Assembly: GCF_006546625.1 (NCBI RefSeq)
Contig: NZ_VIAR01000012.1
Location: 1 to 64,000, forward strand
Length of the DNA stretch: 64,000 bases
Direction of reading: 5' to 3'
From: Haloflavibacter putidus
GTDB lineage: Bacteria; Bacteroidota; Bacteroidia; Flavobacteriales; Flavobacteriaceae
A program made the translations under genes and the position numbers. Positions within the stretch are counted from its first letter, which is position 1. Each line of letters starts with the position of its first letter. Under the pieces are notes generated by a model that ran no database searches, was not told the origin of the DNA, and worked only from the letters and a program-made list of their open reading frames with translations. This document shows, in pieces, positions 12,006-13,381 of the stretch.

Positions 12006-12070
12006 ATGCACACTTTAATCGATAAAATAACAAACATTAACTAATATATTTAAAAATTTAGCAATTAAAT

Positions 12071-12100
12071 TTGCTCAAGCTAGAAAATAGTTTAGCTTTG
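12071..12100 (+). promoter_or_regulatory. Promoter of the asnA leader transcript
   Basis: TTG at 12071-12073 and TAGCTTTG at 12093-12100 are 19 bp apart, a near-ideal Bacteroidota promoter. Transcription is expected to start around 12105-12107, at or next to the ATG (12106) of the first leader ORF, which could make that ORF leaderless. No second promoter is evident before asnA, so the transcript must cross both terminators below. Confidence 0.65.
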
Positions 12101-12105
12101 TAGGT

Positions 12106-12183
12106 ATGATAATTAAATTTTTTCATAATGCCGCTTATTTTAATTCAGTTAATTTTAATTTAACTGAAAAGAGAAAGGCGTGA
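12106..12183 (+). CDS. Candidate leader peptide 1 of the asnA attenuator (25 residues)
   Basis: A 25-codon ORF directly after the promoter, rich in Asn and Phe in its middle (HNAAYFNSVNFN has five Asn... counting from the His: N at positions 2, 7, 10 and 12), ending in a basic tail and TGA. Its last codons contain GAAAGGC (12173-12179), which is complementary to the left arm of terminator 1 (12209-12215) and could form an antiterminator when the ribosome stalls upstream. A shorter overlapping ORF (12128-12163, 11 codons, Ile/Leu rich) is an alternative. The Asn link is weaker here than for leader 2. Confidence 0.45.
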   Translation: MIIKFFHNAAYFNSVNFNLTEKRKA

Positions 12184-12203
12184 AGTTTTAAGATTAATAT
12201 TTT

Positions 12204-12238
12204 AAAAAGCCTTTCTTTAACCGGAAAGGCTTTTTTTA
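12204..12238 (+). terminator. Terminator 1 of the asnA leader (attenuator)
   Basis: A 12-bp stem (12204-12215 with 12224-12235) around an 8-nt loop, followed by a T-run. It lies between the leader-1 ORF and the leader-2 ORF with no promoter visible after it, so it should act as a conditional terminator. The segment GAAAGGC at 12173-12179 can compete for its left arm. Confidence 0.75.
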
Positions 12239-12252
12239 TTTAGATAAGTACA

Positions 12253-12297
12253 ATGCAAAAATCAATTAATAATAACAACAATAATAATTCTACCTAA
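12253..12297 (+). CDS. Asparagine leader peptide of asnA (14 residues, seven Asn in a row)
   Basis: Short ORF ATG to TAA coding for MQKSINNNNNNNST. Codons 6-12 (12268-12288) are seven consecutive Asn codons (five AAT, two AAC). The next gene is asnA, which makes asparagine, so a ribosome stalling on these codons when Asn-tRNA is scarce is the expected control signal. A terminator follows 31 bp after the stop codon. The segment 12302-12309, just after the stop, can pair with the left arm of that terminator. This is the classic layout of a leader-peptide attenuator. No transcript or peptide data are available; the call is from sequence alone. Confidence 0.8.
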   Translation: MQKSINNNNNNNST

Positions 12298-12301
12298 AAA
12301 C

Positions 12302-12358
12302 GGTAGCAGATTGTTGTATCCTAATTCAGCCTGCTAACCAAGTTAGCAGGCTTTTTTT
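12302..12358 (+). promoter_or_regulatory. Attenuator of asnA: antiterminator and terminator 2
   Basis: Terminator: perfect 11-bp stem AGCCTGCTAAC (12328-12338) with 12342-12352, loop CAA, then a T-run to 12358, only 21 bp before the asnA ATG. Antiterminator: GGTAGCAG (12302-12309) pairs with CTGCTAACC (12331-12339) with a single bulged A, which destroys the terminator stem. A ribosome stalled on the Asn codons would leave 12302-12309 free and asnA on; one that reaches the TAA at 12295 would cover it and let the terminator form. Confidence 0.75.
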
Positions 12359-12379
12359 ATAACCTAAAATTTAAAAACG

Positions 12380-13381
12380 ATGAAAACTGACATTCTTACC
12401 ACCGAAAAACAACTCTTGTTTAGCAAGAAGACCTTTAGAAAACAATTGCAAAAACACTTAAACTTAACCCAAGTTTCTGCACCAATCGCCGTGTTGGAAG
12501 GCACCGGTATTAACGACGATTTAAACGGACACGAGCGCTGTGTAAACTTTCCGGTAAAAGCCTTGCAAGACCGTAAAGCTGTTGTAGTAAACTCGCTTGC
12601 AAAATGGAAACGCTGCCGTTTAAAAGAGTTAGAAATGCAACCAAACTCCGGCATTATAACAGATATGCGCGCCATTAGACCAGACGAAGATTACAGCCCC
12701 ATACATTCTATTTACGTAGACCAATGGGATTGGGAAAAAGTAATTACTCCTGAAGAAAGAACACTCGCTTCTCTAAAACATACGGTAAAAGCAATTTTTA
12801 AAGCTTTACGGAAAACCGAAGAAAAACTTCACAAAAAACATGGCATAGATAAAAAACTTCCAAAAGAAATAACCTTTATCCACGCCGAAGATTTACTAAA
12901 AATGTATCCGGATTCAAGTCCGAAAGAACGGGAAAACAAAATAACCAAAAAATTTGGCGCCGTCTTTTTAATTGGTATTGGTGGCGCTTTAAGCAACGGA
13001 GAACCACACGATGGCCGGGCGCCAGATTATGACGACTGGTCTACCCCAACCCTTAACGGCTATTCCGGTTTAAATGGCGATATTTTACTTTGGAACCCAA
13101 TCTTAAAACACGCCTTTGAAATCTCTTCTATGGGAATTCGTGTGAGTCCGGAAACTTTAATGCAACAACTTAAAATTAGAAATCAATTGGAAAAACAACA
13201 CTTTTATTACCACCAATTATTATTGAAAAAAGTATTACCAGCCTCTATTGGAGGCGGAATTGGCCAATCTAGAATTTGCATGTTCTTATTAAACAAAAAA
13301 CATATAGGAGAAATTCAAAGCAGTATTTGGGATACCGGAATTATGGAACAATGCCAAAAAGAAAAAATTGATTTGTTATAA
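12380..13381 (+). CDS. asnA: Aspartate--ammonia ligase
   Basis: AsnA of 333 residues, the usual length of this class-II-synthetase-like enzyme. It makes L-asparagine from aspartate, ammonia and ATP via an aspartyl-adenylate, in the cytosol. Visible family segments include LNLTQVSAPIAVLEGTGIND near the N terminus, FPVKALQDRKAVVVNSLAKW, VDQWDWEKVI, and the C-terminal SIGGGIGQSRICMFLL (class II motif 3 with the ATP-site Arg). Expression appears to be controlled by two tandem leader-peptide attenuators in the 374 bp upstream. It is monocistronic; no terminator with a T-run is visible directly downstream. Confidence 0.95.
   Translation: MKTDILTTEKQLLFSKKTFRKQLQKHLNLTQVSAPIAVLEGTGINDDLNGHERCVNFPVKALQDRKAVVVNSLAKWKRCRLKELEMQPNSGIITDMRAIRPDEDYSPIHSIYVDQWDWEKVITPEERTLASLKHTVKAIFKALRKTEEKLHKKHGIDKKLPKEITFIHAEDLLKMYPDSSPKERENKITKKFGAVFLIGIGGALSNGEPHDGRAPDYDDWSTPTLNGYSGLNGDILLWNPILKHAFEISSMGIRVSPETLMQQLKIRNQLEKQHFYYHQLLLKKVLPASIGGGIGQSRICMFLLNKKHIGEIQSSIWDTGIMEQCQKEKIDLL

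Follow-up and report, generated by a model that had tools for sequence, protein, structure and literature searches.

Transcription attenuators that read a leader peptide are known for the trp, his, leu, ilv, thr, and phe operons. For asparagine, Firmicute T-boxes read tRNA-Asn by binding the uncharged tRNA directly, and asnA of E. coli is controlled by the AsnC protein; these systems share a physiological input or a target gene with the leaders described below, and neither uses a leader peptide. In the Bacteroidetes, the Bacteroid-trp RNA is a cis element thought to be a Trp attenuator. It is classified as RF01692 (PMC2864571) and differs from the present leaders in its amino acid and its genes. 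Part of a survey of terminators (PMC2965389) describes leader peptides as known at that time from Proteobacteria and Actinobacteria only, to which its authors added bacilli. Within the same family as the genome studied here, and by the same general mechanism, leader-peptide attenuation was proposed before amino acid operons from transcript maps of Flavobacterium psychrophilum, with conserved 5′ elements at pheA and hisG (PMC9723704); asparagine, asnA, and asnB do not occur in the main text of that paper. A transcript map of B. thetaiotaomicron also mentions leader-like sORFs. Two short ORFs and two attenuators within one leader are described in an account of Salmonella mgtCBR, where the tandem attenuators, mgtM and mgtP, each have a signal of their own, ATP and proline (PMC3641672), whereas both asnA leaders carry Asn codons.

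The locus analyzed here lies in the window, a 64,000-nucleotide stretch of a contig of Haloflavibacter putidus, where asnA is very probably preceded by two trp/his-type transcription attenuators in series, both predicted to read Asn codons. The sequence and its comparison with relatives show the two leaders, the two terminators, and conserved Asn coding, and for attenuator 1 also covarying, exclusive pairings; at this level, a ribosome-mediated, Asn-specific attenuation is strongly supported. The likeness to the trp, his, leu, ilv, thr, and phe attenuators lies in an ORF rich in codons for the product, alternative 1:2, 2:3, and 3:4 hairpins, and a T-run terminator before the gene. The differences are that the codons are for Asn, that the targets are asnA or gatCAB with a fused AspRS, that two attenuators for the same amino acid often stand serially, and that the phylum is Bacteroidota. 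Rfam includes the T-box, and a search of the window returned no family at gathering score, and no T-box match upstream of asnA. Searches of openly licensed PMC papers did not turn up a description of an asparagine leader attenuator. While the mechanism class is known, the novelty, as far as searched, appears to lie in which amino acid is read, in the target genes, in the serial placement, and in the use of the design a second time, before a transamidation operon.

Table 1. Features of the asnA leader region and the regulated gene, in window positions.
Feature	Position	Strand	Basis
Candidate −7 element TAAATTTG	12066..12073	+	TAnnTTTG type, 32 nt 5′ of leader 1
Leader peptide 1, MIIKFFHNAAYFNSVNFNLTEKRKA, 4 Asn codons	12106..12183	+	ORF, comparison with relatives
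Hairpin within leader 1	12144..12168	+	TTCAGTTAA 12144-12152 / TTAACTGAA 12160-12168; overlaps Asn codons
Segment 2 of attenuator 1, AGAGAAAGGC	12170..12179	+	antiterminator strand, partner 12209-12218
Terminator 1	12205..12234	+	12-bp stem then T-run
Leader peptide 2, MQKSINNNNNNNST, seven Asn codons in a row	12253..12297	+	ORF, conservation, shuffles
Predicted 1:2 protector hairpin, attenuator 2	12278..12317	+	12278-12285/12310-12317 and 12290-12294/12302-12306; fold, z −3.56
Segment 2 of attenuator 2, GGTAGCAG	12302..12309	+	antiterminator partner of 12331-12339
Terminator 2	12328..12358	+	11-bp stem 12328-12338/12342-12352, T-run 12352-12358
asnA (regulated gene), aspartate--ammonia ligase, 333 aa	12380..13381	+	TIGR00669

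The regulated gene matches its profile at 403.6 bits (cut-off 292.8) and is separated from an upstream kef-like gene by an AT-rich spacer of 374 nt (Table 1). An earlier note on this DNA had picked out half of the system, namely the attenuator next to asnA; this part stands, and the upstream attenuator, the protector hairpin, and the gat leaders described below had been missed. Translation confirms the noted leader with seven consecutive Asn codons (ATG 12253, TAA 12297; in order, two AAT, two AAC, and three AAT), and the fold confirms the noted 11-bp terminator at 12328-12352 with its T-run, the loop of which is 3 nt and in which the first T of the T-run falls within the stem. The complementarity to the left arm of this terminator that had been seen at 12302-12309 also holds, the partner being CTGCTAACC at 12331-12339, with one bulge. 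In the fold of 12250-12362 (−29.4 kcal/mol, z −6.08), the window's attenuator 2 is well formed, and Asn codons at 12278-12285 pair with 12310-12317 and CTACC (12290-12294) with GGTAG (12302-12306); in this predicted structure, the pairing is the classical 1:2 protector hairpin at its expected position. The antiterminator pairing taken alone is of modest significance (19 of 500 shuffles equally strong or stronger).

The low chance attributed to the Asn run was likewise upheld. In the 350 nt 5′ of asnA, none of 300 dinucleotide shuffles yielded an ATG ORF of equal Asn density, and six consecutive AAY codons occur at just two sites of the 2.92-Mb assembly: leader 2 and the inside of one long coding gene, DnaJ-like by reading of the sequence rather than by database search. 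No other short ORF of the assembly has an Asn run like that of leader 2. A reversed-pattern control for AAY runs gave counts identical to those of the forward pattern; it reads the same repeats and is therefore not independent.

In attenuator 1, the hairpin within leader 1 has nine perfect pairs and forms part of segment 1:2, and its counterpart in relatives partly covaries; the 1:2 fold, which overlaps the Asn codons, has a z of −2.47. In the antiterminator, segment 2 can pair over 10 bp with 12209-12218, which covers most of the left arm of terminator 1. Upstream of leader 1, a second candidate for a −7 element, TAGCTTTG, lies at 12093-12100, just 5 nt from the ATG; we take TAnnTTTG to be the −7 consensus of the Bacteroidota sigma-A type.

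The proposed mechanism would proceed as follows. RNA polymerase would start upstream of leader 1, where the consensus matches lie, and would arrive at asnA only by reading through both terminators, first 1 and then 2. With ample Asn-tRNA(Asn), a ribosome would reach the end of each leader and segment 2 would be masked or held in the 1:2 hairpin; with segment 2 occupied, the 3:4 terminator would form and transcription would end. When charged Asn-tRNA is scarce, a ribosome coupled to the polymerase would stall at the Asn codons and open the 1:2 hairpin, and the freed segment 2 would pair with segment 3, letting transcription continue into asnA.

To compare relatives, asnA loci were drawn from two sources: (i) a profile scan of relatives' contigs, of which the best 80 of 591 relatives were used, and (ii) searches of whole genomes, 299 from the family, 16 from the genus, 395 from the order, and 395 from the class, in which 23, 5, 10, and 23 genomes, respectively, had an asnA match (the groups overlap, and two of the 10 order matches are doubtful). 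We placed 134 loci, and 127 entered an Asn-density test after seven with less than 400 nt upstream were dropped. A locus passed when the densest Asn ORF in the 350 nt 5′ of asnA was reached by at most 3 of 300 dinucleotide shuffles. By this measure, 28 of 127 loci passed, including one duplicate (L104, on the same contig as L002) and one that appears to be chance (L042), and 99 failed. In a 60-shuffle version of the test, 27 loci were found for Asn against 0-3 loci for each of 18 other amino acids, Cys being left out.

Besides the window's family and order and further genomes of its class, passing loci occur in Hymenobacter and Solirubrum (L003, L004, L006, L009, and L010) and in two metagenome-assembled genomes (MAGs), labelled Bacteroidales (L011) and Bacteroidetes (L066). 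On an asnA tree holding 126 of the 134 rows, the attenuator label needs 8 changes against 23.9 in shuffles, and well-supported branches force at least three changes, which may be one gain and two losses. The earlier note had read the locus as an Asn-leader attenuator for asnA and had proposed aligning asnA upstream regions; that comparison revealed conserved Asn ORFs and covarying hairpins and favors the reading, as far as sequence goes.

Pairing in attenuator 1 was specific to each locus. Its segment-2/segment-3 duplex was matched by at most 15 of 500 shuffles in 21 of 22 loci (L107 being the exception, with 54), and such shuffle tests are inflated by the relatedness of the loci. When own and swapped partners were compared in 19 loci (near-copies L002, L009, and L086 excluded), none of 20,000 permutations was as good; the own partner was one of the top two of 19 in 15 loci and ranked lower in L003, L087, L107, and L113. 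In a 22-sequence alignment, pairing reached 91.9% in the antiterminator helix, where both partners had changed in 5 of 8 pairs, and 95.0% in the terminator helix, where this held for 8 of 10 pairs; the two helices share segment 3 and are therefore mutually exclusive. When partners were slid by one column, the share of paired cells over the whole structure fell from 83.4% to 56-59% in one case and from 86.3% to 52-66% in the other, a control in which the antiterminator and leader-hairpin columns are favored because they were picked by hand from the alignment. On the raw MAFFT alignment, RNAalifold predicted the terminator only and not the antiterminator. The leader 1 hairpin, at 70-79% paired, was weaker than the other helices, in part owing to gaps that put the window's version out of register.

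A 1:2 fold with z below −2 was obtained in 16 of 22 attenuator-1 loci and 8 of 14 attenuator-2 loci, the fold of L088 having used a start 3 nt too far upstream. The attenuator 2 antiterminator was matched by at most 25 of 500 shuffles in 3 of 14 loci, and swapped partners did as well as own partners in 258 of 20,000 permutations (10 loci; near-copies L002, L083, L105, and L086 excluded), a weaker result than for attenuator 1. RNAalifold gave no structure for attenuator 2 on the raw MAFFT alignment.

Both leaders and both terminators were found in 11 rows (L001, L002, L085, L086, L087, L088, L106, L109, L117, L120, and L011). A further locus, L066, has two Asn-rich ORFs and the first terminator; the hairpin that precedes its asnA has a T-run with an interruption and falls outside the terminator scan list. 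This locus was judged by eye and is absent from all pairing tests. Leader 1 stands alone in Hymenobacter, Solirubrum, L028, L084, L107, L113, L116, and L121, and the upstream attenuator was found in more relatives than the downstream one. Examples of first leaders are MTQNLNNNFFNNSNNNLFGNGKIMF (L106), MNLNTNNNPFNNNLNNFRLRKAYIV (L087), and MRQFNNSLNNQNRNNNLFRRWKAMV (L010, Hymenobacter), and of second leaders MPILNLNNNNNNYKSPPG (L085) and MYFLNNNNNNNLTASG (L083). In L003 and L113, the stretch AAAAAAACTCCCC...GGGAGG lies between terminator 1 and asnA and looks like an opposite-strand terminator or a remnant of attenuator 2.

The rival account that survives best, and one we regard as unlikely but worth weighing, is that attenuator 2 functions alone, leader 1 and terminator 1 being a decayed relic, or terminator 1 merely ending leaky transcription from the upstream gene. 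Because the window's leader 1 has four Asn codons against 5-10 in the other 21 loci compared, and because the Mesonia loci L082, L083, and L105 have leader 2 alone, attenuator 1 is possibly fading here. Against this stands attenuator 1 itself, which in the window keeps an intact leader hairpin, 10-bp antiterminator, and 12-bp terminator, and the closest named locus (L002, "uncultured Mesonia sp."), whose AsnA protein is 92% identical to that of the window, retains the same leader 1 in frame. The distribution of promoter-like sites also speaks for two attenuators in series: TAnnTTTG occurs within 70 nt 5′ of leader 1 in 11 of 22 loci against 1.47 expected by shuffles, and it is absent between terminator 1 and leader 2 in all 11 tandem rows (gaps of 8-30 nt), so leader 2 is probably carried on the transcript that runs past terminator 1.

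Several second leaders share a further motif, the Asn run being followed by [ST]PP or PPPG in L066, L085, L087, L088, L106, L117, and L120 and by SPPL in L011; L086, near L085, has SPSG. A Pro-Pro after the Asn run is a possible pause. As called, the second ORF passes through the terminator in L087 and L088 and stops at it in L106. These Pro motifs would suit an account in which the leaders act by another route, whether translational control of asnA, Rho, or a Pro-Pro stall for which the Asn codons merely time the ribosome, as would the lack of a clear 1:2 fold in L087, L088, L106, L117, L120, and L011 (z −0.74 to 1.43). We consider such a route improbable, given that each Pro-motif locus has a terminator-like hairpin and T-run before asnA (interrupted in L066), that L086 has SPSG, and that the window's leader 2 is without a Pro codon.

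In the host's own genome, AsnA is the sole asparagine synthetase over curated cut-offs. No AsnB above the curated cut-off was found there, the three TIGR01536 matches all being weak and two of them having glmS and purF as their best profiles, and a profile search did not find GatB; AsnRS is present. Without AsnB over the cut-off and without GatB, the host probably has AsnA as its asparagine source. An asparagine-synthase-like 585-aa frame of the same genome (L139, C11:419711-420550; TIGR01536 at about 94.3 bits against a cut-off of 267.1) is perhaps an amidotransferase of a different pathway.

Relatives with a gatC-gatA-gatB::aspS operon, which would serve tRNA-dependent asparagine formation, appear to carry a leader of the same design before that operon. 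A covariance model of attenuator 1 (R1), trained on asnA loci alone, was used to search 299 family genomes and 395 class genomes; its matches to the window and to the 21 remaining asnA leaders follow from how it was built. At E ≤0.01, R1 had matches in 145 of 299 family and 63 of 395 class genomes and is not specific alone. Among the 30 best family loci, six were asnA loci, all from the training set, and 24 were not; with 13 of the 30 class loci fetched, these 24 make up the 37 loci inspected. Two of those 13 were asnA, and several others resemble chance. All 24 non-asnA family loci have, by eye, an Asn-run leader (e.g., MRNNNNNNNFNNPNF) and a terminator, with a GatA-like frame 281-311 nt 3′ in 22 of them (by eye; GatA was profiled in G265 alone); the contigs of L192 and L196 reach no further than the small gene that follows the leader. 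GatB exceeded its cut-off in 23 of the 24 genomes and adjoins the leader on the same contig in 22; G170 has it on a different contig, and G124 has no GatB match. The GatB frames of these 23 genomes are 1115-1123 aa long (809 aa in G170) and also contain an aspartyl/asparaginyl-type synthetase domain. An asnA match was found in none of the 24 genomes, a result that is not significant alone, as about 1.8 would be expected from 23/299.

The run codons of the gat leaders are Asn in 153 of 168 cases (116 AAT and 37 AAC), and departures from the consensus number 2 at the first, 14 at the second, and 38 at the third codon position; changes falling mostly at third positions indicate that the peptide is kept rather than a DNA repeat. 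The antiterminator of the 24 gat leaders is paired in 100% of cells and near-invariant, so covariation is uninformative there. The gat leaders L205 and L206 were also considered as Phe_leader of Rfam and rejected (35.7 and 34.1 bits against a gathering score of 55).

At L205 (G265), the leader and terminator are followed first by an 88-aa GatC-like gene (PF02686, 23.2 bits; cut-off 23), then by GatA (TIGR00132, 432.4 bits, under the cut-off of 481.1), and finally by a 1112-aa GatB-AspRS protein. Across the gat loci, the 88-89-aa gene before gatA scores 21.9-23.6 bits with Pfam GatC against the cut-off of 23 and is likely, albeit marginally by profile, GatC. In the fusion, residues 13-477 match GatB at 398.1 bits (cut-off 338) and residues 521-1112 match bacterial AspRS at 655.2 bits (cut-off 373.85). 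GatB and a second bacterial-type AspRS are thus joined in one chain at L205:2296-5634, with matching frames in L206, L207, L208, L209, and L210, these chains being 1111-1116 aa long; the Flavobacteriaceae carrying these chains also have a stand-alone AspRS and AsnRS. In L209 (G006), the gatC-gatA-gatB::aspS operon lacks a convincing leader. An AspRS-GatC bifunctional protein (NCBIfam NF009460, PRK12820) is similar in fusing AspRS to an amidotransferase subunit; in the present operon, which lies behind an Asn leader, the subunit joined to AspRS is instead GatB, and the fusion scores 479 bits against that family's cut-off of 1379. In G265, the fused and the stand-alone AspRS share 38.4% identity. 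The six fused AspRS read have RDHG and the five stand-alone ones read, including that of Mesonia, have RDKG; His at this position is a mark of non-discriminating AspRS, which here serves as a lead rather than a test. Asparagine made on tRNA alongside AsnRS would resemble the situation in Deinococcus and Thermus.

Among 46 genomes profiled, GatB exceeded its cut-off in 26 and AsnRS in 45; the 26 comprise the 23 gat-leader genomes above, G006, and two asnA-leader genomes. For asnA-leader genomes, GatB was found in 0 of 10 of the same family and is present in G419 and G335, which belong to other families (frames of 491-495 aa). AsnB-type matches at the TIGR01536 cut-off occur in 8 of 24 gat-leader, 8 of 12 asnA-leader, 3 of 4 asnA-without-leader, and 6 of 6 other genomes, so transamidation cannot be claimed as the sole route for all 24 gat-leader genomes. 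Ordinary AsnB (557-573 aa, two-piece match) numbers 0, 1, 3, and 5 in these four groups, under a post hoc criterion beside which one-piece matches of like length stand in G213 (575 aa) and G169 (579 aa). Across Bacteroidota, it is probable that an Asn-tRNA-sensing leader is a common control, placed before asnA, often as two in series, where AsnA makes asparagine, or before gatC-gatA-gatB::aspS, where asparagine would be made on tRNA and the switch would read the operon's own product.

That all of this is chance, with an AT-rich spacer giving AAT/AAC runs and the hairpins being ordinary intergenic terminators, seems very improbable. The spacer is indeed AT-rich, and AAT repeats arise easily; against this stand the shuffle and amino acid controls, the uniqueness of the six-AAY run among the short ORFs of the assembly, the occurrence of the leaders in several Bacteroidota groups, the mostly synonymous changes of the gat leaders, and the locus-specific, covarying antiterminators. 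We give equally little credence to the view that about 12107-12237 is a separate small RNA gene outside asnA regulation, which a promoter-like site and an own terminator would fit, since relatives have an in-frame Asn-rich ORF there with its own terminator and antiterminator (the loci were chosen via asnA, so linkage to asnA is no evidence against this view).

If serial Asn attenuation is correct, asparagine would join the amino acids read by classical attenuation, and well-supported attenuators, including two for the same amino acid in series, would be added in a phylum that has seen little work on the mechanism. One mode of control would then serve two unrelated asparagine routes, one of which directly makes the sensed aminoacyl-tRNA. 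The leader may also aid annotation by flagging which asnA or gatCAB copy serves asparagine, and the GatB::AspRS fusion offers a testable single-chain transamidosome part.

Other leaders were seen in Bacteroidia, among the 13 class loci inspected: Phe-rich leaders with terminators before prephenate dehydratase (L148 and L151), Thr/Ile-rich leaders with terminators before aspartokinase/homoserine dehydrogenase (L150 and L158), and, before asd, a leader-like ORF of ambiguous content with a terminator (L149). Together, these five loci suggest a wider attenuator repertoire in the phylum.
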